From IMG/VR virus record IMGVR_UViG_3300033053_000011, positions 1 to 44,022 of that record: a stretch of 44,022 nt of DNA; one strand, 5' to 3'. The notes under the pieces are model-generated. The model did no database searches, was not told where the DNA came from, and saw nothing but the letters and a program-made list of their open reading frames with translations. The translations under genes and the position numbers were made by a program. How positions within the stretch are numbered: the stretch's first letter is position 1; each line of letters begins with the position of its first letter. This DNA is from a virus. This document shows, one piece after another, positions 1,451 through 41,647 of this stretch.

Positions 1451-2559
1451 AGGCAGATAAGGCGATTAACGCACTGCTGGTTGAGACCAAGGCCAACGAT
1501 GCTGGCGACGAAGTGTTTTACTTCCAAGCTTCCGTGGGCACCAAGGACCGAGACGGCGAGATTGTCACCGTTGACGGCTGGCAGTTCGACAACTTCCTGA
1601 AGAACCCAGTGTTCATGACCTTCCACGACTACGAGACGTGGCCGGTTGGCAAGGTCGTGTCGCTTGAGCCCAACGCCATCGGCTTCACGATTGGCGTTGT
1701 GTTCGACGTTGAAGACCCGGAAGCCGTCAAGGTCATGAGGAAGTACCAGAATGGCTTCCTCAACTGCGTCTCGGTCGGCTTCCTTCGGCTGGAGACGACC
1801 GGCAAGCGCGTAGGCAAGGACTGGGTGACGACCAAGAAGGAACTGTTGGAGGTGTCCGCAGTCCCCATCCCGGCGCACCCTGATGCGACGATGATCCGCA
1901 AAGACATCGAGGGATTGGAGGACCGAGTGAAGGGCAACAAGGCTGTGGACTTCGCCACTTCGCTGGCGCTGGACCAGGCCCGCAGCAACCTCTGGGACCG
2001 CAAGTGGGTCATCGAGCGTGCGCTGGAGCGGGCCAATGACAGCGTCATGGAAGACGGCGACCTGGACCGGGAAGCCAAGCTGGCGGCCATCGCCGGCAAC
2101 TTCGAGCAGTTTGGCCAGGCCATGCTCGGCTGGTACGGCGACTACATCAACGTCAAGACGCTTGCGGAAGCCGCTGGCGTCAAGATGGTCCAGCCGACCA
2201 AGCCCAGCGAGACGGCCGGCACCGAGACGACCGAAGACCAGCCTGCCGAGACCGGCGTGAAGGCTGGTCGCTCCATCAGCAAGAAGAATGCTGAGGCCAT
2301 CAGTGAGTGCGTCAGCACCATCGAGGAGTGCATGAGCATGCTTGGCGAGGCAAAGACGGCTCTCAGCGGTCTCGTGGCGGACGACAAGGCAGAAGGCGAT
2401 GCTGGCGACGGCAAGCCTGCGGCCGAAGGCGACGGCACCCCCAAGGAAGACGCCGGTGCGACCGGCCAGAAGTCGGCCACCGATGGTGGCGAGGTGGCAG
2501 TTGGCGATGACATCCTGTCCGCGCTGACTGCGTTCGTTGGCAACAAGGAGGCCAAGTAA
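1447..2559 (+). CDS. HK97-type prohead protease with C-terminal scaffold-like extension
   Basis: This 370-residue protein carries the HK97 prohead serine protease fold (family U35), which cleaves scaffold or capsid extensions during maturation. Likely catalytic residues are His60 in FHDYETWPVGK, Ser109 in NCVSVGF and Glu135 in LLEVSAVPIPAHPDA. Their spacing nearly matches HK97 (His65, Ser114, Glu139). Residues after about 190 are Ala/Glu/Lys/Gly-rich and probably helical or disordered, which suggests a scaffold segment carried on the protease; that is inference. It starts inside the stop of the upstream small gene and ends by sharing one base with the capsid gene start, so the head genes are tightly coupled. 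Confidence 0.9.
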   Translation: MKADKAINALLVETKANDAGDEVFYFQASVGTKDRDGEIVTVDGWQFDNFLKNPVFMTFHDYETWPVGKVVSLEPNAIGFTIGVVFDVEDPEAVKVMRKYQNGFLNCVSVGFLRLETTGKRVGKDWVTTKKELLEVSAVPIPAHPDATMIRKDIEGLEDRVKGNKAVDFATSLALDQARSNLWDRKWVIERALERANDSVMEDGDLDREAKLAAIAGNFEQFGQAMLGWYGDYINVKTLAEAAGVKMVQPTKPSETAGTETTEDQPAETGVKAGRSISKKNAEAISECVSTIEECMSMLGEAKTALSGLVADDKAEGDAGDGKPAAEGDGTPKEDAGATGQKSATDGGEVAVGDDILSALTAFVGNKEAK

Positions 2560-4031
2560 TGAAGCTCAACAACATCGAGCAGCTGCTGACGGACGTGGCT
2601 CAGCGGCTCCAGGGCATTCCCGAGAATGTCTTGGGTGAAAAGCAGATTCGCGACATCTTCCAGTCCATGTGGGACGCCGCGATGGCGGACCCTGAGCTGG
2701 GCCGCAAGATGCGCTTCCAGGATTCGCCGGACGTGCTCCAGGGCTCGAAGTTTGCCCGTTGGGGTCTCGGTGTCGCTGACATCGAGTTCCTCTACGACAT
2801 GCAGTCGGCTCTCAAGGGCCAGCGCCGGTCGGATGGCAGCGCCTACACCGGCCCCAGCGACCAGCTGGAGAATGCCTTCAAGGCCATCTCGGATGCCTGC
2901 TACATCAGCCAGGAAGAAATCCGCCGCATCGACGGCCAGGCCATCGAGGGCATGTTCCCTCGCGTCTCGAAGGCTGCCATGAAGTCCTACGAGCGTGCGC
3001 TCAAGGCCATGGACACCGCTGAGTCCGGCTACGGCCAGCAGCTGGTGGGCGCGCAGTACGTCGGTGAGCTCTGGGAGGCTGCGCGGCGTGAGTCCCGCAT
3101 CTTCAACCAGCTGACGGCCTTCGAGATGACCAGCCCTTCGGCCTACCTGCCGGTGGAGGTGGACATCCCTGAGATGTTGTTCGTTGGTGAGTCCACCAGC
3201 CCGACTGCGTTCACCAGCCCCTACGCCACCTCCAAGACCGGCTCGCAGCGCGTCCAGGTCGATGCCAAGAAGTTCATCATCCACCAGGTGTGGAGCGGTG
3301 AGCTGGAGGAAGACGCCATCGTGCCCTTCATCCCCTTCCTGCGTGCGCAGGCGGCCAAGGCCATCGCCCACTACACGGATTCGCTGGTCCTCAACGGTGA
3401 CACCACCAACGCGGCGACCGGCAACATCAACCTGGACGACGCGGACCCGGCCGACACCAAGCACTACCTGGCCTTCGACGGCATCCGCCACGCCGCTATG
3501 GTGGACAACACCGCCAACGCGGTGGACTGTGCCGGCGCGGTCACCTACCGCCAGCTCACCAAGCTGCGCGGCCTGATGGTCGATGCGGCCCGGTTCGTGG
3601 ATTGGGGCCACCCGGCTGACCCCAATGACCTCATCTTCTGCTCGGATGTCGATACGGCTGACCGTATTGCTGAGCTCGATGAGGTTCTCACCATGGACAA
3701 GTACGGCGCGAATGCCACTGTCCTCAACGGTGAGGTGGCCAAGATTGGTCGGAACCCGCTCTGCGTCTCGCTGGCCCACAGCAAGACCGAGGCGGATGGC
3801 AAGGTCAGCACGACCGCTGCCAACAACACCAAGGGCCAGGTCACGGCGTTCAACCGGAAGGGCTTCGTGCCCGGCTGGCGGCGTCGCGTCAAGCTGGAGG
3901 TGGAGCGCATCCCCGGCACCGACCAGACCCGCATGGTCTACTCGATGCGCATGGGCATGGGTCGGTTCACCCCGACCGGGAATGCCAACGCCATCGAGGC
4001 TGCGGCCTGCCTCTACAACATCACGGTCTAG
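2559..4031 (+). CDS. Major capsid protein (HK97-fold)
   Basis: This 490-residue protein lies directly after the prohead protease and is the best candidate for the major capsid subunit. It is long for an HK97-fold protein, with about 150 extra N-terminal residues before the region rich in aromatic and beta-forming segments (YLPVEVDIPEMLFVGEST; KKFIIHQVWSGELEED). The ending RMVYSMRMGMGRF followed by AACLYNITV is typical of the capsid C-terminal strand. The N-terminal part may be a scaffold-like delta domain or an inserted domain; sequence alone does not decide. Codons are strongly GC-ending, consistent with high expression. A hairpin follows the stop codon. Confidence 0.85.
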   Translation: MKLNNIEQLLTDVAQRLQGIPENVLGEKQIRDIFQSMWDAAMADPELGRKMRFQDSPDVLQGSKFARWGLGVADIEFLYDMQSALKGQRRSDGSAYTGPSDQLENAFKAISDACYISQEEIRRIDGQAIEGMFPRVSKAAMKSYERALKAMDTAESGYGQQLVGAQYVGELWEAARRESRIFNQLTAFEMTSPSAYLPVEVDIPEMLFVGESTSPTAFTSPYATSKTGSQRVQVDAKKFIIHQVWSGELEEDAIVPFIPFLRAQAAKAIAHYTDSLVLNGDTTNAATGNINLDDADPADTKHYLAFDGIRHAAMVDNTANAVDCAGAVTYRQLTKLRGLMVDAARFVDWGHPADPNDLIFCSDVDTADRIAELDEVLTMDKYGANATVLNGEVAKIGRNPLCVSLAHSKTEADGKVSTTAANNTKGQVTAFNRKGFVPGWRRRVKLEVERIPGTDQTRMVYSMRMGMGRFTPTGNANAIEAAACLYNITV

Positions 4032-5706: not shown

Positions 5707-6207
5707 ATGAACAAAGGCTTCAAGTTCAGGCCTCCCAGCCTTTCCCGGCTTGAGCACCTTGCGAGTGGCGGGAAGTCGGGCATGATTGCGACCGAGTTGC
5801 GCACGGCCTTCGAGGCGTCCGGCTTCATCGTTGAGGATGAGGCCCGGAACCGTGCGCCGGTCAACATGGGCATGCTCAAAAACTCCATCACTCACGAGGT
5901 GGATAGCAGCTCAATGCCCAGGTTCGTTGAGGTCGGCACCAACCTCTTCTATGCGCCGTACGTCCATAACGGCCGGAAGCCTGGAAAGATGCCGCCAGTG
6001 GAGCCGCTGAAGGCTTGGGTTGAGCGGAAGCAGCTCAAGGACGAAGACGGTGAGCCACTCAGCGCCTGGGCCGTGGCCATGAGCATCAAGAAGAAGGGCA
6101 TCAAACCTAAGCCCTACCTGACTGGTGCGCTCGAAGCCAAGCAGCGCAGCGTCTTCCGGCAGTTCGACAAGGCACTTGATAGGGTTCAAGCACAATGGCA
6201 CGACTAG
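5707..6207 (+). CDS. HK97 gp10-like tail completion protein
   Basis: A 166-residue protein from the ATG at 5707; a TTG at 5701 overlapping the upstream stop would add two residues. It has the gp10-like pattern of an N-terminal helix with RNRAPVNMGMLKNSI, then a beta segment FVEVGTNLFYAPYVHNGRKPG and a basic region ending in PYLTGALE. Proteins of this family join head and tail in long-tailed phages. Its 3' end overlaps the next gene by 13 bases. Confidence 0.85.
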   Translation: MNKGFKFRPPSLSRLEHLASGGKSGMIATELRTAFEASGFIVEDEARNRAPVNMGMLKNSITHEVDSSSMPRFVEVGTNLFYAPYVHNGRKPGKMPPVEPLKAWVERKQLKDEDGEPLSAWAVAMSIKKKGIKPKPYLTGALEAKQRSVFRQFDKALDRVQAQWHD

Positions 6208-18029: not shown

Positions 18030-18266
18030 ATGAATCTGCCTGAGTTCGTGCGAGATGAGACCAGCCGTGAGTCCATCAGTCGCCTGCTTCCGCTGGTCAC
18101 GTGCCTGGTAATGCTCTTGGTCGTTGCGGCCGTCTCGGTCCTGCGGCGTGAGCTCGTGGCCATTCCGGATTCCTGGGTGGCCTTCTTTGGTGTGACGGCC
18201 ACCATGTACGGTGCTGCGAAGGGGCTGCAGCTCGGTCTCGGCCAGAAAGGACAGGCCAATGAGTAA
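18030..18266 (+). CDS. Putative holin
   Basis: A 78-residue protein with two hydrophobic stretches (LLPLVTCLVMLLVVAAVSVL and SWVAFFGVTATMYGAAKGL) joined by a short charged turn. Small two-span membrane proteins immediately before an endolysin are usually holins, which set lysis time by opening the inner membrane. GGAGGTGAAACG before the ATG is a near-perfect ribosome site. The 3' end overlaps the endolysin start by eight bases. Confidence 0.75.
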   Translation: MNLPEFVRDETSRESISRLLPLVTCLVMLLVVAAVSVLRRELVAIPDSWVAFFGVTATMYGAAKGLQLGLGQKGQANE

Positions 18267-18774
18267 GCAAATGCAGATGCCGCCTAATGGCGGGAAGACC
18301 TACCTCACCACGGAAGCCGAGTTGGCGCGGTTCAACATCGACAAGGAAGATGCGTGGTGCCACGAGGATGGCGACCGCTCCAAGCCGTGCGCCGATTGCG
18401 GCGGACGCATCTACATCCACTTCCGCCTGGCGGAAGCCTTCTTCATCGTCAGGACGGCGCTTGGCCTTCCAATCAAGTGGTCTTCCGGCTATCGCTGCCT
18501 GGAGAAGCAGGAACGGCTCTACCGCAACGCCTCGCAAGAGGAACGTGACCAGGGCCTCGTGGCCAAGCCTGGCACGTCGCCGCACCATCGCGGCGCAGGC
18601 GACTGGGTGAAGCCTGACCGATTCGCCAACCCGACCGAGTGGGGCAAGTTCATCGTCAGCACCCTCAAGGAATACGGCCGCGCCGTCCGTGTCGGATGCC
18701 TGCGATACCGCAGTTTTGCCCACGTGGACGTGCTCAATGAGTTGGACGGGAAGCCGTCCGGAATCAGGTGGTAG
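18259..18774 (+). CDS. Endolysin, M15 / VanY-type peptidase
   Basis: A 171-residue enzyme, start at ATG 18259 with CAGAAAGGA upstream; an in-frame earlier start overlaps the holin and has no better site. The zinc motif region SPHHRGAGDW and the later HVDV match the SxHxxGxAxD and HxD metal ligands of the M15 family, which cuts peptidoglycan peptide cross-links. An unusual N-terminal segment has WCHEDGDRSKPCADCGG with several cysteines, perhaps a small metal site. No wall-binding domain, as common for Gram-negative phages. It lies between holin and spanin-like genes. Confidence 0.85.
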   Translation: MSKQMQMPPNGGKTYLTTEAELARFNIDKEDAWCHEDGDRSKPCADCGGRIYIHFRLAEAFFIVRTALGLPIKWSSGYRCLEKQERLYRNASQEERDQGLVAKPGTSPHHRGAGDWVKPDRFANPTEWGKFIVSTLKEYGRAVRVGCLRYRSFAHVDVLNELDGKPSGIRW

Positions 18775-19814: not shown

Positions 19815-19828
19815 ACCCCTTCCCTCAA

Positions 19829-19841
19829 AACTCAGAAAGGA
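19829..19841 (+). repeat. 13-mer ribosome-site repeat, exact copy
   Basis: AACTCAGAAAGGA, ending seven bases before the ATG at 19849. Confidence 0.85.
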
Positions 19842-19848
19842 CAACACG

Positions 19849-20034: not shown

Positions 20035-20053
20035 GTCCGTCCCAAACACCTAC

Positions 20054-20066
20054 AACTCAGAAAGGA
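20054..20066 (+). repeat. 13-mer ribosome-site repeat, exact copy
   Basis: AACTCAGAAAGGA directly upstream of the DUF2786 gene at 20074; no hairpin was seen in this leader. Confidence 0.85.
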
Positions 20067-20073
20067 AACCACG

Positions 20074-21140: not shown

Positions 21141-21181
21141 AGATTTGTCGGGAGCGAGACGCGACCGGCCGAGACACTCAA

Positions 21182-21194
21182 AACTCAGAAAGGA
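21182..21194 (+). repeat. 13-mer ribosome-site repeat, exact copy
   Basis: AACTCAGAAAGGA, eight bases before the ATG at 21203. Confidence 0.85.
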
Positions 21195-21202
21195 CACCAA
21201 TC

Positions 21203-24807: not shown

Positions 24808-25041
24808 TTAATCTGCGCCGTCCAAATCTCCAAATGCAGCCTCAATCATCGCCACATCGATGGCCTCAAATTGTTGCGCCGCATCCTTCTCCATCCCCAT
24901 GATAACCTCTCGCACCACGGACCGTCTCACACCGGCCTGGAGCATCCTGTCCCGAGCGGCCACCACGAGGATTGAGACGGCTTCCGCTCGGACGCGGCCG
25001 GCAATCGCTTTGAGCTGTTTGATGTCGTCTTCAGACAGCAC
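24808..25041 (-). CDS. 77-residue helical hypothetical protein
   Basis: GTG start at 25041 with TGGAG six bases upstream. The protein is helical and charged (SEDDIKQLKAIAGRVRAEAV; SVVREVIMGMEKDAAQQFEA). It may be a small DNA-binding or adaptor protein, but no clear helix-turn-helix is seen. It is the first gene after the inverted-repeat region at 25071-25183, so it could be controlled from there. Confidence 0.6.
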   Translation of the reverse strand: MLSEDDIKQLKAIAGRVRAEAVSILVVAARDRMLQAGVRRSVVREVIMGMEKDAAQQFEAIDVAMIEAAFGDLDGAD

Positions 25042-25070
25042 AAAAACTCCATTCTAACATCATCGCACGC

Positions 25071-25183
25071 CGGTCCGTGTGGGTCCGTGCTGCCTTTAGT
25101 AACCCTTCGGAAATAAAAATAAGCGTCTTAACTTAATTTAATTATCCTGCTTAACGGGATAGAGCACGGACCCACACGGACCG
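25071..25183. repeat. Perfect 21-bp inverted repeat flanking AT-rich core
   Basis: The left arm 25071-25091 (CGGTCCGTGTGGGTCCGTGC plus T) has its exact complement at 25163-25183. Each arm contains GGTCCGTG twice, nine bases apart. The 71 bases between include a long A/T run around 25110-25146. The whole structure lies in the 150-base gap between the 77-residue gene and the SNF2 helicase. Candidates: replication origin with iteron-like boxes, protein-binding operator pair, or an RNA structure. Confidence 0.6.
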
Positions 25184-25191
25184 AGCCGTGC

Positions 25192-26982
25192 TTAGCGTGT
25201 GGAAAACAAGGCAAGTCCACGGTCGATGATGGTCTCAGCCACGTCTTTCTTGTTGGTGAGTGCGCTGATGACCGCTTCGTCCACGGTATCCTTGGCGGCG
25301 ATGTTGATGTAGGTGACGCTCTTGGTCTGACCGATGCGGTGCGCACGGTCTTCCGACTGCAAGCGGTCTCGAAGGCTGAAGTTGTTTGAGAAGTAGATGA
25401 CATAGCTGGCCGAAACCAGCGTGATGCCCGTGCCACCGGCCTGCTGGTTGCCTATGAACACCTGCGCGTCGCCTCGCTCGAAGTTTTCAATGGCGTCCAC
25501 CCGGTCGGTCTTCGAGACGCCGCCATGGTATTCGACACACTTGATGCCTTCGGACGCCAGCCGAGCCGCAATGTCCTCAATCTCAACCCGGTATCGAGCC
25601 CAGACAATGACCTTCTCACCGGCTTCCGTGATGGCCCGCACGCGGTCCGCCAGCAGCTCCAGCTTGGGGTTGTCGCCTTCGATGCGGACCGGCTCTGGGG
25701 CGTCCGGATGGATGTAGTAGCCGCTGGTGATTTGGGCCAGCTTCGAGACGGCGACCAGCTTGTTGATTGGCGTTTCGTCGCCTTGGAAGACCAGCCGGCA
25801 TTCGTCTTCGGCCTTCCGGTAGACTTCCCGCTGCTCAGGTGTGAGGTCAAACAGCACCGTCTTGTAGACCTTCTCAGGCAGGTCCAGGCACTCGGACTTG
25901 AGAACCCGGAAACTGTGCGGCGCGATGAGGCTTGACAGCTTGTCAAGGTTCCGGAACTTGGGAAGACCTGCCTTGTCACGCTCAACGATTTGCGGGATGC
26001 GGTTGGGGTTGAAGGCCGCACCGAGCCGCTGGCTGTAACCACTGCAGATGCTGTCGATGCAAGCAATTGCGCGCAGCGCCTGAGCCTTCTTGGTGCCGGG
26101 TGCGGCCGGTCCAGGCTGGAAAAGGGCTCTGAGGTTGCGCACGCCGGTCAACATCCGCTCGTAATCGCCACCCTCGTGCGCCTCGTGGACGATGGACATG
26201 GCCTCGATGGGCTCGGAACGTCCGTTTGCGTAGACCAGCTTGCGCAGTTCCTGCTCGGCTTCCGCAAGTGTGGACCGCTCACCGTCGCTCAGCTGGACCT
26301 TCTTGGAGACGATGCCTTGGATGAGGTGGTGGTTGGCCGGAAGCAGCTCAGCGTACTCGGCCTTGAAGGCGTAGAAGCTGGTCGTACCAAGGATTGAGGT
26401 GTCAAGGAAGCTGAATTGGCTGAAGGCGTCGAACGGCGCATTGTTGATGGGGGTGCCGGACATGATGCGTCGCCACTTTGAGCTGGCCTTGAGCTTCATC
26501 AGGGCCTTCGTGCGTGCTGCGGTCGGGTTTTTGACGGCGTCCGATTCGTCGCAAACGATCATCGGACGCATCCCAGATTTGATGAACCGCTCGGCAAACT
26601 CAAAGCCTCGCTTGGTTTGCAGGGCTTCCCAGTTCATCGTGAGCACCCGTAGCTCGCCATCTCCAGGCTTCAAGAGGCCGTCCAGCTGAGCCTTCTCAGC
26701 CTTCCCGGCCCCAGCATTCCACGCACCGGCCTTGAACCGCACCCAGTCGGGCATGTGCTTGGGAAGCTCCAGGCGGGTCCAGTTGGTATGGACGCCGTTG
26801 GGTGCGAAGACCAAGGCAACATCACAATCTCCAGACCCCCAGAGGTCCGCGATGTTGTTGATGATGATCCAGGTCTTCCCTGTGCCCATGTCGGCCAGCA
26901 ATGCGAAGTAGTCTTTGCGGCCGAAACGGTTGAGGCACTCCAGCTGGTGCTTGTATGGCTTGGTCTTAAACTTGGTCGTCAT
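25192..26982 (-). CDS. SNF2-family DNA helicase/translocase
   Basis: A 596-residue protein from ATG 26982 (or one codon earlier, GTG). Motif I is LLADMGTGKTW; motif II is VCDESDAVKN, a DESD form of DEAH; motif III MSGTPINN; motif V around GNQQAGGTGITLVSA; motif VI SEDRAHRIGQ. These define the SNF2/DEAD-like superfamily 2, which moves on double-stranded DNA and remodels protein-DNA complexes. In phages it lies with replication genes and may help fork restart or recombination. It overlaps the upstream tiny gene by one base. Confidence 0.9.
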   Translation of the reverse strand: MTTKFKTKPYKHQLECLNRFGRKDYFALLADMGTGKTWIIINNIADLWGSGDCDVALVFAPNGVHTNWTRLELPKHMPDWVRFKAGAWNAGAGKAEKAQLDGLLKPGDGELRVLTMNWEALQTKRGFEFAERFIKSGMRPMIVCDESDAVKNPTAARTKALMKLKASSKWRRIMSGTPINNAPFDAFSQFSFLDTSILGTTSFYAFKAEYAELLPANHHLIQGIVSKKVQLSDGERSTLAEAEQELRKLVYANGRSEPIEAMSIVHEAHEGGDYERMLTGVRNLRALFQPGPAAPGTKKAQALRAIACIDSICSGYSQRLGAAFNPNRIPQIVERDKAGLPKFRNLDKLSSLIAPHSFRVLKSECLDLPEKVYKTVLFDLTPEQREVYRKAEDECRLVFQGDETPINKLVAVSKLAQITSGYYIHPDAPEPVRIEGDNPKLELLADRVRAITEAGEKVIVWARYRVEIEDIAARLASEGIKCVEYHGGVSKTDRVDAIENFERGDAQVFIGNQQAGGTGITLVSASYVIYFSNNFSLRDRLQSEDRAHRIGQTKSVTYINIAAKDTVDEAVISALTNKKDVAETIIDRGLALFSTR

Positions 26983-27146
26983 CACTTCTTCAATCCCTTT
27001 CTAAGTGCCTGAAGAGCGCCGTGATTGGTTTTGCGGTATGGGCCAACTTCTCCACATGCGCAGCACTCGGCTCGGACCATGGGCGGCTCGTTGTAAGTGC
27101 CGTTATTCCTGAATTTCACGGCCAACGATTCGTGCTTGCAGTTCAT
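26982..27146 (-). CDS. 54-residue zinc-finger-like protein
   Basis: ATG 27146 overlaps the upstream stop codon (ATGA), so it is coupled to the nuclease gene. The protein begins MNCKHESLAVKFRNN and has ECCACGEVGPYRKTNHGAL, giving a Cys-His start and a CxxC that may bind zinc. The basic C-terminus (ALRKGLKK) suggests nucleic acid contact. The small open frame is in a tightly packed replication operon. Function unknown. Confidence 0.6.
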   Translation of the reverse strand: MNCKHESLAVKFRNNGTYNEPPMVRAECCACGEVGPYRKTNHGALQALRKGLKK

Positions 27147-27571
27147 CGCATCAACGCCTCTCGCATGTAAACCCACTGCTGCTTGTCTTTGATGGGCTTG
27201 ACGCAGCTCCAAACAGCATTGTCAAGCAGTTCCGGCACGGTCATGTCGTTGATGTGGTCGGCCAAAGAGCCGGAAAGCAGCATCCATCGCTTGTCGGTGA
27301 CGATGAGGATGTAGGCGCGGCCACCCGCACGGCGCTGCCGAAGGAACCAATTGCGCTGATGCATTGACAGCTTGTGGTTGGAGCCAAAGAGCGGCGTGTC
27401 AGGCCGCTTTGGTTCCCTGGGAGACTTCTGCTCAATCCAGCCTTCGACGCCACCGAAGCAGTAGTTGACGTCCGGCATCCCAACAACCATCACATTTTCG
27501 ATGCGGTCAAGCCGGTCACCCGGTTGCGGGACGTTGGTTTTGAACGCCTTGTAGTCAACAGATTCAGCCAT
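27143..27571 (-). CDS. Putative PD-(D/E)XK (VRR-NUC-like) nuclease
   Basis: A 142-residue protein with ATG 27571 after GGAGG; a longer in-frame start inside the polymerase gene is less likely. GMPDVNYCFGGVEGWIEQK supplies the D...ExK core of PD-(D/E)XK nucleases, and LSMHQRNWFLRQRRAGG resembles the conserved Q-helix of VRR-NUC-type enzymes. Likely a structure-specific or resolvase-like nuclease acting on replication intermediates. It overlaps the 3' end of the polymerase gene by eight bases. Confidence 0.75.
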   Translation of the reverse strand: MAESVDYKAFKTNVPQPGDRLDRIENVMVVGMPDVNYCFGGVEGWIEQKSPREPKRPDTPLFGSNHKLSMHQRNWFLRQRRAGGRAYILIVTDKRWMLLSGSLADHINDMTVPELLDNAVWSCVKPIKDKQQWVYMREALMR

Positions 27572-30323
27572 CAAGACGCCTCCACTTCGAGATGAACGCA
27601 TACCGGATGCCGTTGAAGAATTTGGCCCTGACAAGCAGGTGAGACCCAATAGGCACCTGCTCTAGCAGTTCCTTCCCGATGCGCAGATAGTCGAAACGGT
27701 TGATGCGGCCACCGATCAGCCCGGTGTCGTCTCGCAGCCGAACGTCCAAGAAGTCCAGCTGGCCCGTCTCAACCTTCCCGTTGCGCTTCTTGATGAGCAT
27801 GTCTTCATTGATGTTGCGGCTATTCTTGTGGACCAATTCCCCGATGAAGACCCGCTCGCAGCCGTGGTCCATCCCTTCGGTCAGCTCAGCGATGTCCACG
27901 ACCTTGCTCATGATGCCGTGCGCACGAGGATTGGCGTAGAGGTCGCCGTAGAGCCGGTGCATGGGGAAGATGTCCCCAAACACGTTTTCGGCCTTCTGGA
28001 TGGTCTCAATCTGCTTGGGGGTGAGCTTTCCGGCGTCCCGAGCCTCGATGAGCTTTGCGGCCTTCGATTCCCCGATGCCCTTGAGAGCGAGGAAGCCGCC
28101 ATACAGCTTGCCGTCCTGGACCGACCAGTTGAGCTTCGACCGCTCCAGGTCAAAGGGCACGTACTCAACGCCTTCCCGCACCATTTCCTTGAGCAGCTCA
28201 ACCGCGCTGTCTTCGTCCTTGGCGTTGCGAAGGTTGGTGGCCGCAAACTCCAACGGGTAGTGGGACTTGAGGTAGGCCGTCCAGTACGAGATGACGGCGT
28301 AGCTGTAGGTGTGGGCCTTGTTCATCTGCCACGCACCCATGGTCTGGATGAGCTCCCAAACCTCGCGTGCGGCCTTCTCAGGGATGTCCTGAGCCATTGC
28401 GCCTTCCAGGAACTGGCCAAAGAAGGTGTTGAAGAACTCTTGGCCCATGCGCTTGGAGATGGACTTGCGGATGAAGGCCGTTTCCTTCCACCCAAACTTC
28501 CCGATGTCTCGGACGATGGCTAGGGTGTGCTCTTGGTAGAGCGGCAGGCCGTACGTCTCGGCCATCAACGCCTCAATCTTGGGGTGAATGGGCTCGTAGT
28601 GCGCGCCGTTGTGGCGCTCCACGTACTTCGAGGTGACGCCGGAAGCGAACGGACCCGGCCGAGCCAGAGCCGTCGCCGCGTCCACCTCGTTGATGGACTT
28701 GAACTCAATGGACTGGGCCAACGACCGCAGCGCGTTGCCCTCAAACTGGAAGATTCCACACATTCTTCCTTCGTTGAAGATGTCGAAGGTGGCCTGATCG
28801 TCCAGCGGAAGGTTATACCAGTCGATGGGCACGCCGCTGTCTTCCAACACGCTGAGCGTCCGAAGGCCCAAGACGTCAATCTTGAGCAGCCCCAGGTGCT
28901 CGGCCGAGTTTTTATCCAGGTGCGCGATGCCGTCAGCATCGACCGTGCAGTAGTTGTTAATCCGGTCGTTACAGACCAGCAGCCCAGCCGCGTGGGTTCC
29001 GGTGTGGGAGGCGTGCCCCTCCAGCAACGCTGCGGCCGCTGCCTGTGGGTAGAGCCGCATGAACTCACGGCCAGGCTCGGTATCGTTGAGGGTGTCTTCC
29101 AGGCAGTTGTTGGCTCGGGAGTCAGCGACGGCTCGCTCAATCATCGCAACCTTGACGGCCGCAGTGGCCGAAGGTGGGATGTTGAGAGCCTTGCAGACCT
29201 GGATGAGAGCGGACTTGGGCTTGAACTGCGCGACCGTCCCGATGTGGGCGACGTTGTCAGCGCCATACTTCTCAGCCATGTACTCGAAGACGATGTGGCG
29301 CTTGTCGTCGGGAAAGTCCAGGTCAATGTCAGGCAGGTCCGTGCGCGAGACGTCAATGAACCGCTCGAAGTAGAGCCTGGGCGGAATCGGGTCAATCTCG
29401 GTGATGCGGGACGTGTAGCAGACCAAGCTGCCGGCCGCAGAGCCACGGGAAGGCCCAACCAGCATGTGCTTCTTGGCGTGATGGACCATGTCAGACACCA
29501 CCAGGAAGTAGCTTTCAAAGTCTTTGGACCTGATGAGGTCAAGCTCGTACTGGAGCCGGTCCTCATACTCTTGGGTCCAGGTTGCCTCAAGACCGCGATT
29601 CTTGATGCCTTCCCGGCAGACGGCTTCGAGGTTCCCAGGGAAGTGGATCATTGGGGCCTTCGGCAGCTCAAGCTCAGCGCACGACGCTGCGATGGCCTCA
29701 AGCTCAGGCGTCACCTCGATGTCGATGATGTGCTGAGGCGACGGCTTGAGGCTGGACCGACTGGCAAACTCAAACGCCTGCTTGTCTTCCGGGTAAGCGA
29801 AGGCGTTATCAGCCGTCTCCACAAGCCGAAGGCCGTGCTGCTGGGCCATTGAACGCTTCCGAGCATTGAGGATGCGGGACGCGGGATTGAGGTCCAGCAC
29901 CGCGCCAGCTTCCAAAAGGAAGTCGGCATCAGTGATGTCGCCGGCAAACTTGATGATGGCATCGCTCATCGCCAGCACGTCGCGCCGGTAGAGCCTCGGA
30001 AGCTTGCCGGACCGCGTTGAAACGGTCTGGTGGTGCGCCTTCGAGGTGGCCCGGTAAAGCTCGCTCAGGCCTTCCGTGGTCCGAGCCAGGAACCACATGC
30101 GCTGCGTCCCGTCATCGTCCGATACCACAAGGTCCACGCCAAGCAAAGGTTGGATGCCGGCTTCCTTGCAGGCTTTGAACCATGGCACGTGGCCCCAAGT
30201 GCTGTTTTGGTCAACGATTCCGGCCGCTGTTACGCCCATCTCTTTGAGCCGCTGGACGACCCTCTTGAGCGGTGCGAACGTCTGACCGAAGGTGTATTCA
30301 GTCTTGATGCGTAGCTGAATCAT
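27564..30323 (-). CDS. DNA polymerase III alpha-like (family C) replicative polymerase
   Basis: A 919-residue protein, shorter than the roughly 1160 residues of E. coli DnaE. The N-terminal PHP-like domain begins LRIKTEYTFGQTFAP; the first His of the PHP metal site is replaced by Lys, so that domain is probably inactive. The palm has GPSRGSAAGSLVCY, two catalytic Asp in PDIDLDFPDDKR (about 331 and 333) and a third in LLKIDVLGLR (about 484). Late regions contain a helix-hairpin-helix (GIGESKAAKLI) and an OB-like end. The tau-binding C-terminus is missing, so it may work without the host clamp loader. Gene precedes the nuclease and follows the exonuclease. Confidence 0.93.
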   Translation of the reverse strand: MIQLRIKTEYTFGQTFAPLKRVVQRLKEMGVTAAGIVDQNSTWGHVPWFKACKEAGIQPLLGVDLVVSDDDGTQRMWFLARTTEGLSELYRATSKAHHQTVSTRSGKLPRLYRRDVLAMSDAIIKFAGDITDADFLLEAGAVLDLNPASRILNARKRSMAQQHGLRLVETADNAFAYPEDKQAFEFASRSSLKPSPQHIIDIEVTPELEAIAASCAELELPKAPMIHFPGNLEAVCREGIKNRGLEATWTQEYEDRLQYELDLIRSKDFESYFLVVSDMVHHAKKHMLVGPSRGSAAGSLVCYTSRITEIDPIPPRLYFERFIDVSRTDLPDIDLDFPDDKRHIVFEYMAEKYGADNVAHIGTVAQFKPKSALIQVCKALNIPPSATAAVKVAMIERAVADSRANNCLEDTLNDTEPGREFMRLYPQAAAAALLEGHASHTGTHAAGLLVCNDRINNYCTVDADGIAHLDKNSAEHLGLLKIDVLGLRTLSVLEDSGVPIDWYNLPLDDQATFDIFNEGRMCGIFQFEGNALRSLAQSIEFKSINEVDAATALARPGPFASGVTSKYVERHNGAHYEPIHPKIEALMAETYGLPLYQEHTLAIVRDIGKFGWKETAFIRKSISKRMGQEFFNTFFGQFLEGAMAQDIPEKAAREVWELIQTMGAWQMNKAHTYSYAVISYWTAYLKSHYPLEFAATNLRNAKDEDSAVELLKEMVREGVEYVPFDLERSKLNWSVQDGKLYGGFLALKGIGESKAAKLIEARDAGKLTPKQIETIQKAENVFGDIFPMHRLYGDLYANPRAHGIMSKVVDIAELTEGMDHGCERVFIGELVHKNSRNINEDMLIKKRNGKVETGQLDFLDVRLRDDTGLIGGRINRFDYLRIGKELLEQVPIGSHLLVRAKFFNGIRYAFISKWRRLDG

Positions 30324-31407: not shown

Positions 31408-32085
31408 TCAAATTCCGTACGGCAAGACGCAACCGGTGAGATACTTGTGGTTTTCCTTGCTACTAAGCAGGAAGGCGATGAAACGGGCCACGAGGTGTGG
31501 CGGCGTCTCTTCACCGGTCAGAAGGTTGCGGGCCTGCATCTCCCACATCTCATCGCGGTTCCAGCCGCGCAGCCGCATCACCTGCTCATCGACGGACCGG
31601 CTCATTTCGGTGTCGTGCAGCTTGTTGGGGGCCACGCCGAAGACCGTGATGCCGTACTTCCGGGTCAGTTCCCGAGCCAGCTGCTGGGTCATCAGATGGG
31701 CTGCAGCCTTGCTGGCGCCATACGCAAGGGTGCACGTCATCGGCCGGAAGGCCGCATCACTGATGATGTTGACGACCGTTCCACGGGTCCGGATGAGCGA
31801 CGGCAAGCACGCCTGGGTCATCAGGTAGATGCCCTTGGCATTGGTGCCCATCACGGCGTCCCATTCGCCTTCCGGCAGGTCGCTGAGCCAGTTGAGGATG
31901 TCGATGCCGGCGTTGTTGATGAGTACGTCAACATCAGGAAGGTTGGCCAGGAACTCGATGTTGGGACGGCGCACATCCAGGCCGTGCGCAAGGTCGTAGC
32001 CGAAGACGCTGTGGCCATCTGCGGTCAACGTCTCGGCCAATATGGCCCCAAGCCCAGTGCTGGAGCCGGTCACAAGGATGTTCAT
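31408..32085 (-). CDS. Short-chain dehydrogenase/reductase (SDR)
   Basis: A 225-residue oxidoreductase. The NAD(P)-binding motif TGSSTGLG is at residues 6-13, NNAG is near 60, and the catalytic YGASK is preceded by a serine in ISDAAF. These are the classic SDR features, so it is probably active. It is co-operonic with ThyX and a HAD phosphatase; such an enzyme is unusual in a phage replication operon and may change a cofactor, a sugar nucleotide or a DNA base precursor. Substrate cannot be inferred. Its start overlaps the HAD stop (ATGA). Confidence 0.88.
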   Translation of the reverse strand: MNILVTGSSTGLGAILAETLTADGHSVFGYDLAHGLDVRRPNIEFLANLPDVDVLINNAGIDILNWLSDLPEGEWDAVMGTNAKGIYLMTQACLPSLIRTRGTVVNIISDAAFRPMTCTLAYGASKAAAHLMTQQLARELTRKYGITVFGVAPNKLHDTEMSRSVDEQVMRLRGWNRDEMWEMQARNLLTGEETPPHLVARFIAFLLSSKENHKYLTGCVLPYGI

Positions 32086-32561: not shown

Positions 32562-33283
32562 TACTTGCTTCCCTTCCTCATCTGGTCCACGATTTTGAGC
32601 AGCTGGCCCTTCTTGAGCAGGTCGCCGCCAAACTCACGCTCGGCAAACGCCTCAATCTCAGCGAAGTGGTCCCGTCCCTGCTGGAACAAGAACAACTCAG
32701 CCCACGGGTGGACCTCCAGCACGGCGTCCGCCATGCCGTTGACGACCTTCTGGTACTCGGACTGCGTGCGGCCGCCGGTCCGGCTCTTGACCAGCTCAGA
32801 GAAGGTCCGAAGGTTGAACTTGCAGACGATGTTGGTGGCGATGTTGGTCGGCAGCAGACCTCGGGCATCCTCGGGAGGCTGACCGATGCTGACGAGACGG
32901 TTGTAGCCGCTGCGGATTTGGGCGTTGGTCTCGTTGATGATGGCAACGGCTTCCGGGTCCGCCAGATTGCGGTCGGTGAACACGTAGTCGTACCCGCCCA
33001 TATCCAAGACCCGCATGGTCTGCTGGGCGTAGCTTCCGGCTCGGGTGCGGACCTGCTGATGGGTGTAGGCACGGCTGACGCCTTCCACGAGGAAGACGTA
33101 CTCAACAAATTCCCAGCTGCTGGGGATGGTGTTGGCCATGTAACGAAGCTCTTCAAGCTTCTTGGCTTCCGGCCAAGCCTTGATATCGGCCAGCAGGTTG
33201 GGGCTCATGGTGAGCCGGGTGGCCTTCGTGAACAGCAGAAGCTCAGCGGCGTCCGGCGTATGGCTGATGAGAGTGACTTTCAA
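32561..33283 (-). CDS. thyX: Flavin-dependent thymidylate synthase ThyX
   Basis: A 240-residue enzyme making dTMP from dUMP with FAD, methylene-tetrahydrofolate and NADPH. The ThyX signature is RTRAGSYAQQTMR (residues 79-91), a variant of the common RHRxxSxNxxSxR, with Thr for His, Ala for Asn and Thr for Ser. The C-terminal part (LLPTNIATNIVCKFNLRTF) agrees with the family. A TTG start is used; GGAGGA is eight bases upstream. It pairs with the dCMP deaminase further along the operon. First gene of this minus-strand operon after a terminator. Confidence 0.9.
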   Translation of the reverse strand: MKVTLISHTPDAAELLLFTKATRLTMSPNLLADIKAWPEAKKLEELRYMANTIPSSWEFVEYVFLVEGVSRAYTHQQVRTRAGSYAQQTMRVLDMGGYDYVFTDRNLADPEAVAIINETNAQIRSGYNRLVSIGQPPEDARGLLPTNIATNIVCKFNLRTFSELVKSRTGGRTQSEYQKVVNGMADAVLEVHPWAELFLFQQGRDHFAEIEAFAEREFGGDLLKKGQLLKIVDQMRKGSK

Positions 33284-34356: not shown

Positions 34357-34366
34357 GATGATGTTG

Positions 34367-34379
34367 TCCTTTCTGAGTT
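34367..34379 (-). repeat. 13-mer ribosome-site repeat, exact copy (minus strand)
   Basis: AACTCAGAAAGGA on the minus strand, ten bases before the ATG of the DUF932 gene. Confidence 0.85.
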
Positions 34380-34402
34380 TTTGGGCGATGATGGGGTTGA
34401 GA

Positions 34403-34442: not shown

Positions 34443-35219
34443 CTACGAGACGACGCTGAAGTTGTAGGCGCGTCCATCCAGCCGGAAGGTCGCAAAACCT
34501 TCCTTCTTGACCTTCATGCGGAAGCCGATGTGGCGGCTGAGGGGCAGGTCCAGGGCCTGGAATGCGGCCTTGACCGAGCGGTAGGTGCCGTAGCCCTCAA
34601 CGGCGACGTTGGTGCGCATGGCGCGTGCCTCGGCAACCTCGGGATTCTTCCAAGAGTTGGCGATGGCCTCTGCGCGTTGTTCCTTCTTGGTCTGAGGGTC
34701 GAAGACCTCACCGTTGGCCAGCCAGTACTCGGTCACGCAGTGCTGGCAGGTGCGGCGCTTGTCGCCGGCAACGGTGTTGGGGAGGCCCGCAGGCGTCTGG
34801 TCTTCGGTCTGGCCGCACTTGGGGCACTTGGCCTCGATGGGCTCGGCCTTCGTCTTCTTGGACTTCCGGACCTTGGGCTGCTTGGGCTGGGCTTCCTGGC
34901 CAACCTCGTTGGCCTCGTGCGCATCCTCGGTCGGCTCGGTCTCGGCCGTCTCAGCCTCGGTCTCGGCCACCGGCTCGGAAGGCTCGGACGCTTCCGCCTG
35001 CTCCACCGGCACCTCAGCGGCGTCCGGCTGGGTCTCGGCCACCGGCTCGGAAGGCTCAGAGGAACCGAACAACGCGGCCTGGTTGGCGGCGTTGCGAGCA
35101 GCGGCCAGCTGCTTCTCACCAGCAGCGCGGCTGCTGAACTTCTTGACCGACTTGCCAGTGAGCGCGTTGTACTCAGCCAGCATCTCGGCCGTGGTCATCT
35201 CGGAAATGGTCTTGGTCAT
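34443..35219 (-). CDS. Zinc-ribbon protein with acidic linker
   Basis: A 258-residue protein starting at ATG 35219 after AACTTAGAAAGGA. Domains: an N-terminal helical part (MLAEYNALTGKSVKKFSSRA), an acidic Glu/Ala/Pro linker about 55-125 containing two copies of SEPSEPVAET, a basic stretch KVRKSKKTK, a zinc ribbon CPKCG...CQHC near 130-160, and a C-terminal conserved region (NVAVEGYGTYRSVKAAFQAL). This suggests a DNA-binding or transcription-related protein, which is inference. The repeat in the linker may vary between relatives. Confidence 0.65.
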   Translation of the reverse strand: MTKTISEMTTAEMLAEYNALTGKSVKKFSSRAAGEKQLAAARNAANQAALFGSSEPSEPVAETQPDAAEVPVEQAEASEPSEPVAETEAETAETEPTEDAHEANEVGQEAQPKQPKVRKSKKTKAEPIEAKCPKCGQTEDQTPAGLPNTVAGDKRRTCQHCVTEYWLANGEVFDPQTKKEQRAEAIANSWKNPEVAEARAMRTNVAVEGYGTYRSVKAAFQALDLPLSRHIGFRMKVKKEGFATFRLDGRAYNFSVVS

Positions 35220-37541: not shown

Positions 37542-37724
37542 ATGAAAGTGACCGGAAGCTGCGCCAAGTGCGGCCGCAGCTTCAACATGACCTGGAAAGA
37601 CCACCCGGAAGACAAGAACATCATCATTAGCTACCGGATGCCGTGCCCGCGCTGCCTCGGGACGGCCGAGATGCGCAGCGCCGCAGAGCCGGAAAGCCTC
37701 AGAACTCAGAAAGGACAACAATGA
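37542..37724 (+). CDS. 60-residue zinc-ribbon protein
   Basis: The protein has GSCAKCGRSFNMTWKDHPED, then MPCPRCLGTAE, a clear CX2C...CX2C zinc ribbon. The final residues are encoded by the next gene's ribosome site, since the 13-mer at 37703 lies inside this coding frame. Likely nucleic-acid or protein binding; function unknown. Confidence 0.7.
   Translation: MKVTGSCAKCGRSFNMTWKDHPEDKNIIISYRMPCPRCLGTAEMRSAAEPESLRTQKGQQ
37703..37715 (+). repeat. 13-mer ribosome-site repeat, exact copy within a gene
   Basis: AACTCAGAAAGGA lies inside the zinc-ribbon coding region, before the ATG at 37721. Confidence 0.85.
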
Positions 37725-39469: not shown

Positions 39470-41647
39470 ATGAAAACGTTCCAACAACAGGTCTACGACG
39501 CAGCGCAGACCTGCATCAAGCGAGGATGGTACGTCTTTCCGCTCCATACGGTCGATGACGACGGCAAGTGCTCGTGCGGCCGAGACGCCTGCGGCGACGC
39601 CGGCAAGCATCCTCGCGTTGGCCGTGGCCTCAAGGAAGCCAGCCGAGACGCAGCCCAAATCGAGACCTGGTTTGGTCCGGACGCGCCACCCAGCAACATC
39701 GCCATCGTCACCGGTGAGGTCTCGGGCATCACCGTCCTGGACATCGACATCGGACCGGGAAAGCTGGGGGCTGAGAGCTGGGCTGAGGCCATCAAGGACC
39801 ACGGTGAGCCGCAGACACTAATGGCGCAGACCGGAAGCGGCGGCAATCACGTCATCTTCCAGTACAACTCGGCCTTGAAGACGGCCAGCAACGTGCTCGG
39901 GAAGGGCGTGGACTGCCGGAATGATGGCGGCTACATCGTTGCGCCTCCCAGCCGCCACCGCTCGGGTGGAAGGTATGAGTGGCTCAACCCCGATGAGGCC
40001 ATCGCCATCCTGCCTGCGCACCTCAGCCGTCGCAAGGAAAACCGTGGCCGCCCCAAGAAAGACGACATGTACCGTGGCCGCTACGCCATCGGCCAGGTCC
40101 GGACCATGCTTGAGGTCGTGCCGGCTGATGACCGAGACCTCTGGCGCCACGTCGGCATCATCCTGGGCCGTGAGTTCAACCGCTCGGACGAAGCCTGGGA
40201 AGTCTACGTTGAGTGGTCCAACAAGTACCAGGGCAAGAAGGGTCGGAACCACGATGAAATCATGCACGAAGCCTTCCATGAGCTCAGCCAGCAGCAGGCC
40301 GACAAGGAACTGACGCTTGGAACCATCGTGAAGGCTGCGCTGGACAACGGTTGGAGCCCCAAGGCTGGCGAGGTTCCGCTGGGCAACTTCGTCTACTACG
40401 GACCCGGCAACAACTACATCTACCGGCCCACTGGAGCCTTCTGGGTCGCTGCGGCGGTGGATGCTGCGGTCTCGCAGGTCAACGAGAATGGCAAGCTGGT
40501 GCGGGCCTCGGATTGGCTCAAGCTCAACCAACTGGCCACGTCGATGACCTCGGACCCTGCCGTTGACGAAGACTACCTCAAGGGCCACGACTGCCGGAAT
40601 GGCGAGATTGTGGCGGTGCCTGGCGCTGCCATGTTCAATGCCTACCGGAAGCCGACCATTGAGCTTGGCGACGCCTCGCTTGCGTGGCCGTTCCTGCGGC
40701 ATGTGGAGAAAATCTTCAACAAGCCTGGGGATGCTGATCAGTTCCTGAATTACATGGCCCACAGGGTCCAGAAACCGTGGGAAAAACCACGTTTCGCCCT
40801 ACTCATTGCTGGAGGACAAGGCGTTGGGAAAGACACTGCTATCGAGTTTTGCTGCCCGGCTATTGGCGTCTGGAACGTTGCGAACATCGACCCTGCGGCG
40901 TTCGACCAGTCGTTCAATGAGTATGCGGCTTCGACGTTGGTGCGAATCAGTGAAGCGGCGAATCTTCACGAGATGTCGAAGTGGGCATTCAACGAGCGCA
41001 CCAAGGTCTTGATTGCTGGGTCGCCGGACGTGATGGCGATCAACCCCAAATACGGCCAGAAATTCACTGTCCGCATGCATTGCGGCGTCATCATCACGAC
41101 CAACCACCTGGCCTCGGGCATCTACATCCCTCCAGACGACCGAAGGTACGACGTCATGGAGTGCGCTACGATGGGCGAGATGGGGCTATCCGATGACCGG
41201 ATGAGGCGCGAGTACTTCAGCGACCTTTGGGACTGGTTCCTGGCCAACGGAGGTGCGTCTCATGTGGCCGCGTACTTGACCCAACGAGACCTTTCCGGCT
41301 TCTCAGCGTCCAACGGCCAGCGGAAGACGGCTGCGCACGAGACGGTGGTTGCGGCCGGAATGAGCAACGACCACTGGCTTGATGATATTCTGGATGAGCT
41401 GGAGCGGCCGGAAGCCGTCCGAGCCGACTGGATTGTGACGAAGGCCGTGGCGATGGGCGAGAAAGACATGGAGGTGAAGCGCAAACTCAGCAACGCCATC
41501 GGCCGCATCGGCTACACCATCTTCAAGAACCCAGCGACGAAGGATGGCCGCTGGAAGATCAAGGGCAAGAATGTGACGGTGTATGTGAAGGTGGGCACGC
41601 CATCGACCTACAACCCAGTCACCGAGCTAGATAAGGACCCATTCTAA
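39470..41647 (+). CDS. Prim-Pol / D5-like helicase replication protein
   Basis: A 725-residue fusion. The N-terminal archaeo-eukaryotic primase-like (Prim-Pol) domain has VLDIDIGPGK (about 90-99, catalytic Asp pair), TGSGGNHVIFQY (about 121) and DGGYIVAPPSRH; a Cys-rich loop CSCGRDACGD lies at 36-46. The C-terminal half is an SF3/D5-like helicase: LLIAGGQGVGKDT is Walker A (about 447) and VRISEAANLHE a likely Walker B. It probably primes and unwinds DNA for the phage polymerase. GGAGA before ATG. Confidence 0.88.
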   Translation: MKTFQQQVYDAAQTCIKRGWYVFPLHTVDDDGKCSCGRDACGDAGKHPRVGRGLKEASRDAAQIETWFGPDAPPSNIAIVTGEVSGITVLDIDIGPGKLGAESWAEAIKDHGEPQTLMAQTGSGGNHVIFQYNSALKTASNVLGKGVDCRNDGGYIVAPPSRHRSGGRYEWLNPDEAIAILPAHLSRRKENRGRPKKDDMYRGRYAIGQVRTMLEVVPADDRDLWRHVGIILGREFNRSDEAWEVYVEWSNKYQGKKGRNHDEIMHEAFHELSQQQADKELTLGTIVKAALDNGWSPKAGEVPLGNFVYYGPGNNYIYRPTGAFWVAAAVDAAVSQVNENGKLVRASDWLKLNQLATSMTSDPAVDEDYLKGHDCRNGEIVAVPGAAMFNAYRKPTIELGDASLAWPFLRHVEKIFNKPGDADQFLNYMAHRVQKPWEKPRFALLIAGGQGVGKDTAIEFCCPAIGVWNVANIDPAAFDQSFNEYAASTLVRISEAANLHEMSKWAFNERTKVLIAGSPDVMAINPKYGQKFTVRMHCGVIITTNHLASGIYIPPDDRRYDVMECATMGEMGLSDDRMRREYFSDLWDWFLANGGASHVAAYLTQRDLSGFSASNGQRKTAAHETVVAAGMSNDHWLDDILDELERPEAVRADWIVTKAVAMGEKDMEVKRKLSNAIGRIGYTIFKNPATKDGRWKIKGKNVTVYVKVGTPSTYNPVTELDKDPF

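Follow-up and report, generated by a model that had tools for sequence, protein, structure and literature searches.

The 113-bp element at positions 25071–25183 (no strand assigned) of the window, by which the whole 44,022-bp linear IMG/VR virus record analysed here is meant, is very probably, as judged from sequence comparison, a phage replication origin of the pRN1 type, as used by initiators in which Prim-Pol is fused to an SF3/D5-type helicase and, at the C-terminus, to a winged helix. This assignment is supported by the anatomy of the element, its conservation as a normally single-copy element, its location bias, the spacing of its boxes and the covariation of its arms with the winged-helix-like segment of the initiator. 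The original prediction of a candidate origin, in which iteron-like boxes flank an AT-rich region for unwinding, has gained comparative support for the function that it proposed, and the call now stands on normally one element per relative, its usual place behind the Prim-Pol gene, the C-terminal covariation and the anatomy of pRN1.

The left arm (CGGTCCGTGTGGGTCCGTGCT, 25071–25091, + strand) and the right arm (25163–25183, − strand), its perfect complement, pair at 21 of 21 positions and enclose a 71-bp core (25092–25162, no strand assigned), the predicted unwinding region, which has 66% A+T versus 40% for the window. The box GGTCCGTG occurs twice per arm at a spacing of 10 bp, at 25072–25079 and 25082–25089 in the left arm and at 25165–25172 and 25175–25182 on the − strand in the right arm. 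The perfect 21-bp inverted repeat with 71 bases between its arms, the doubled box and the A/T-rich core were thus all as first described, and the claim that such a structure is unlikely by chance was upheld as well: the chance expectation of a perfect 21-bp inverted repeat within 300 bp is ∼6 × 10−6, the second-longest perfect inverted repeat of the window measures 13 bp, and the score of the element was reached by none of 12 composition-preserving reshuffles. The search for the box elsewhere, suggested with the prediction, yielded 11 copies of GGTCCGTG in the window (2.4 expected), seven of them single copies outside the element (433, 1037, 24916, 29336, 31058, 33411 and 43202), for which codon usage or weak secondary sites are options; the doubled form, searched over the whole window, is confined to the two arms. 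Folded as single-stranded DNA, the element scored a z of −7.9, as against −7.9 for the pRN1 origin and −12.2 for the BPP-1 element.

As first described, the element fits inside a gene-free gap (25042–25191) beside the SNF2 helicase, flanked by two genes on the − strand, namely a 77-aa ORF (24808–25041) and the SNF2-type helicase gene (25192–26985), whose stop codon adjoins the element. The SNF2 protein, compared with relatives only, has an extra segment of ∼95 residues that is also present in L001–L003 and L024 and missing from most other relatives. Within the replication gene cluster lies a FabG-like short-chain dehydrogenase gene (31408–32085) with relatives in G010, G012 and G013. A recurrent leader, AACTCAGAAAGGA, precedes genes at 19823–19846, 20048–20071, 21176–21199 and 37697–37720, and on the − strand at 34362–34386; similar leaders are found in relatives and were read as a common translation or transcription signal.

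The predicted initiator is encoded 14 kb from the element (39470–41647, + strand) and comprises a Prim-Pol domain (residues 12–183; PF09250, E = 1 × 10−32), PriCT_2 (213–290), a DUF5906/D5-type helicase (448–559; PF19263, E = 5 × 10−12) and a C-terminal winged-helix-like domain, and it matches the solved NrS-1 polymerase in the helicase region. The predicted topology of the C-terminus fits a winged helix in a model of moderate confidence (pLDDT 75), and its structure matches were mostly winged helices, singly insignificant (E at least 0.13).

Conservation in relatives, for which the original prediction had asked, was found: 26 relatives of the Prim-Pol/helicase have a comparable structure, normally one each and with an AT-rich core of 47–101 bp, in which the arms vary between phages yet remain self-complementary and the anatomy is kept. 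The genes shared are those of the replication module, not structural genes. Homologous structures likewise follow the SNF2 gene in G009 (L013) and G001 (L015), with GGCCGTGT replacing GGTCCGTG; G002 (L069) is an additional case, and pattern searches located the element at other positions in L033, L061, L116, L122 and L125. When nine elements are aligned, 88% of the arm cells pair and both sides have changed in 8 of 21 pairs, the outer box core being invariant and the mismatches concentrated in the inner box. Scanning the contigs of 13 relatives for doubled CCGTGT revealed in nine exactly one forward and one reverse match, which together make up the element; in G001 the element is accompanied by weak matches with two mismatches, and the right inner box of G004 is degenerate. 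No doubled-CCGTGT element occurred in three of these contigs (G010, G012 and G013), each of which has one structure of like shape with other arms, such as TCGGGCCTATGCT in G010; the cores of G010 and G011 are similar.

General scans, which used neither in-arm doubling, location nor covariation, detected more such elements in other relatives, e.g. in G019 with arm CGTTCCGTGCTTTCCGCGCT (20/20). Most of the relatives' elements beat reshuffled genomes, those of G005, where two candidates tied, and G014 not clearly; a different inverted repeat outscored the element in G002 and in G011, and recognition there rested on the CCGTGT arms. By general scan and reshuffle comparison, five relatives were without a convincing element. 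Since complementary arms and an AT-rich core were the marks by which many elements were identified, these two features are not counted as independent evidence. G017 is the exception to one element per genome, having two with near-identical arms (5718–5844 and 49850–49988).

Location was assessed on fresh loci fetched by the primase protein alone, 24 of them new, and in 13 of these 24 the structure lay close behind the primase gene, L201 and L208 among the out-of-sample loci being near-copies of contigs already in the set. Examples are L221 (arms 23/23, +26 bp behind the primase gene), L228 (20/20, TCCGAGCT doubled at 9 bp) and L220 (29/29). Overall, 20 of 27 elements lie behind the initiator gene at a distance of no more than 1.5 kb, where random placement would give 2.8; the 27 include the window's own element and come only from contigs with a recognised element. 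Cumulative GC skew, another suggested check, gave no consistent support: in the window its minimum falls 0.5 kb away from the element, in G002 a maximum lies near the element, and no extreme was seen at the element in G001 and G011. Given this inconsistency between relatives, GC skew was rejected as a proof.

Outside the relatives, a search of 84,980 genomes of bacteria and archaea with the arm pattern TGGCCGTGTG, which leaves out the way the window's arms are spelled, gave ten matches, none of them with an AT-rich core. The elements of L125 and L015 searched against annotated phage DNA, and that of L125 against plasmids, gave weak or low-complexity AT matches only. In cultured phages whose replication module is partly related, no AT-cored element of this kind was found behind the primase, as examined in Pam3, in the fetched parts of Carpasina and CN1 and in the primase region of JD001; CN1 has a long inverted repeat (34802–34972) whose core, relative to the others, is not AT-rich. 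A pattern match at L038 5408–5425 resembles the acceptor-end region of a tmRNA-like gene and was judged by eye to be unrelated to the element.

The only peak of in-arm box doubling lies at 9–10 bp. Among 25 distinct arm families, in-arm matches of at least 6/7 occurred at an offset of 9 in nine families and of 10 in five, whereas the other offsets from 5 to 14 occurred in 0–1 families each, with 0.07–0.37 expected per offset (combined p = 2 × 10−17 for doubling at 9–10 bp, 14/25 arm families). No strong doubling was detected in 11 of the 25 arm families, and the B-type arms are among those without clear doubling.

A second regularity ties the arms to one part of the initiator. Across 25 phages, arm similarity tracked the similarity of residues 641–717 (41390–41620 of the window, + strand) with a partial r of 0.35 after correction for helicase identity, a value equalled in 0 of 3000 permutations (p < 0.001) by a test that handles relatedness through helicase identity only. 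Over the same 25 phages the other primase segments gave partial r values of −0.13 to 0.14, and eight control proteins (SNF2, Pol III alpha, ThyX, exonuclease, three Pam3-like proteins and a phrog_4828 protein) did not exceed 0.08. Residues 361–451 were also raised in a coarser earlier test on 14 phages, for which the larger set gives no strong support. Single cases run the same way: the helicase domain of L220 is ∼85% identical to that of several relatives, yet its arms are unrelated and its C-terminus is 56–59% identical, and conversely G004 and G011, at 69% in the helicase and 68% in the C-terminus, have matching arms. No protein common to G008 and the window was detected, yet beside the G008 element a 270-aa protein with the C-terminal domain is encoded; the best primase match of this domain is G006, and a 22-base stretch is common to the G008 arm and the G006 right arm. 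The likely box reader, as far as these comparisons indicate, is the Prim-Pol/helicase 14 kb away and not the adjacent SNF2 protein, which is an unlikely reader because it has no positive covariation with arm sequence.

Stand-alone proteins of ∼90–235 aa that contain the winged-helix-like domain of the primase C-terminus, and whose genes often follow directly behind that of the primase, were observed in G001 (29769–30149), G012 (51038–51424), G013 (2290–3092), G014 (32820–33206), G015 (18076–18462) and G016 (28552–28938), and also in L199, L204, L207, L217, L218 and L220; they are possible regulators or partners at the element's boxes.

Such paralogues, present in many relatives, bear on a different reading, in which the element is an operator whose paired boxes are bound by a regulator, possibly the stand-alone winged-helix protein, that controls nearby promoters, maybe with origin and operator combined. 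The pairing and symmetry of the boxes would suit it, as would the position of elements at operon boundaries (between divergent operons in G004, G005 and G006) and the promoter-like sequences after the element in L013, L015 and L069. However, the window's element is without a promoter-like site, the promoters concerned vary between relatives and occur also where relatives have no element there, an operator has no need of a long AT-rich core of constrained length, and the pRN1 counterpart is needed in cis for replication and can be moved (PMC4234260). We hold an operator to be unlikely.

Action at the RNA level, as a long transcript hairpin serving as terminator or regulatory RNA, would agree with arms that keep complementarity while their sequence changes and with the folding of the element strand, far better than that of shuffles (z = −7.3). 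It is very improbable nonetheless, since several copies lie between divergent operons, Rfam gave no match near the gathering score, and an RNA would not be expected to have boxes doubled in phase with the helix or to covary with a protein domain; a terminator-only role, which the original prediction had named as fatal to itself, is opposed by the loop of 71 nt and by the failure to find a terminator-like site (a short-loop GC-rich hairpin followed by a T-run) in the element. The varying position between relatives and the proximity of some copies to the small terminase gene (G005) might instead recall a mobile palindromic (MITE-like) element or a packaging site, a reading that we find scarcely credible: there is normally one copy per genome, the bacterial and archaeal matches to TGGCCGTGTG have no AT-rich core, and the bias to positions behind the primase gene largely disfavours it.

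For the preferred reading, a replication origin, we infer binding, melting, priming and bidirectionality, as well as the share of box recognition versus the hairpin. The winged helix of the initiator (∼residues 641–717) would bind the four GGTCCGTG boxes, two per arm and on one helical face, which would probably place two initiator rings face to face; two helicase rings would thus assemble facing each other over the core and open its 71 AT-rich base pairs, possibly helped by hairpin extrusion of the perfect arms. The Prim-Pol domain could then synthesise primers on the opened strands for extension by the Pol III-alpha-like polymerase of the phage, and two forks would result. More broadly, we lean towards one origin design common to Prim-Pol/SF3-helicase/winged-helix initiators, whether of archaeal plasmids or of phages that belong to several bacterial groups, i.e. 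two inverted box pairs at 9–10 bp around an AT-rich core of 50–100 bp, in which the boxes, not the hairpin alone, would form the specificity code read by the winged helix, and box and domain would change together to give private origins despite ∼85% helicase identity. If so, a sequence rule (perfect arms, a box doubled at 9–10 bp, an AT-rich core, usually behind the primase gene) would find origins class-wide, where those of most phages are unmapped; the pRN1 stem-loop would be reinterpreted as inverted iteron pairs; a probable reader domain would be named, one whose binding motif the pRN1 study had been unable to identify; and the phages would provide initiators and origins matched by nature, in which replication specificity and incompatibility could be tested.

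Stem-loop origins for this initiator class are already published; the doubled boxes, the covariation with the initiator and the displacement beside the SNF2 helicase in the window are apparently new, and no report of doubled boxes was found among the titles and abstracts listed for later open-licence work or in one later pRN1 paper. The NrS-1 polymerase is a Prim-Pol/helicase fusion like that of the window, with sequence similarity in the helicase region, and two recognition sites, one per strand, have been suggested as its origin (PMC7102993, PMC8718748); each is a single site of 8 nt, recognised through the priming part, whereas the window has doubled boxes. SaPI-type initiators bind origin repeats via the C-terminal domain, with the origin directly downstream of the gene; in SaPI Rep and SCCmec Cch2 this domain reads short repeats, and two hexamers have been proposed (PMC7581432). 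SaPI origins are clusters of short iterons by the same account, while the window has a perfect inverted repeat; set against SaPI-type iterons, its four boxes stand two per arm, and the arms covary with the C-terminal segment of the initiator.

Nearer counterparts are found in phages. Bordetella phage BPP-1, also with a Prim-Pol/D5 initiator, has ∼470 bp behind its primase gene an element (NC_005357 26607–26710, locus L246 1108–1211) with perfect 22/22 arms, a 60-bp AT-rich core and TTGCCTCGT doubled at 9 bp, apparently distinct from the stem-loop drawn for BIP-1, which adjoins position 27,177 (PMC4234260). Acinetobacter phage 4316 (19/19), Burkholderia phage BcepC6B (20/20) and Mycobacterium phage BarrelRoll show a like design 48–155 bp behind their primase genes; their initiators have D5/DUF5906 domains in common, with a related AEP domain in BcepC6B instead of Prim-Pol and no Prim-Pol match reported for BarrelRoll.

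The closest model is the Sulfolobus plasmid pRN1, whose ORF904, like the window initiator, combines Prim-Pol with a D5/DUF5906 helicase; ORF904 ends in a winged helix (PMC4234260), a fold that is predicted for the C-terminus in the window. The pRN1 origin was mapped to a stem-loop of 100 bp that lies 54 bp behind orf904 and which with the replication operon is necessary and sufficient, is needed in cis and works when moved (PMC4234260); for that reason a location behind the initiator gene was not treated as essential. The study describes the origin as lacking iteron structure, reports no specific initiator binding and records one stem mutant rescued by restored symmetry, which favours the hairpin over box sequence. 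By our measurement, the pRN1 origin has 21/21 arms, a loop of 58 bp, 78% A+T, and TGTCCA doubled at 9 bp, a doubling that we did not find described there. In pRN2, pHEN7, pIT3 and pXZ1, for whose plasmid family stem-loops are reported (PMC4234260), an ungapped scan gave no clear doubled-box element. The pRN1 origin, genetically tested, lies directly downstream of its initiator gene, whereas the window's element, a predicted origin, lies 14 kb off beside SNF2; both have perfect 21/21 arms, an AT-rich loop (58 versus 71 bp) and a box doubled in each arm (9 versus 10 bp). The pRN1 stem-loop, a kind of origin that was proposed for Bordetella phage BIP-1 too, is conserved in structure and not in sequence (PMC4234260), and this same feature, a conserved structure with varying sequence, is present in the family of the window.
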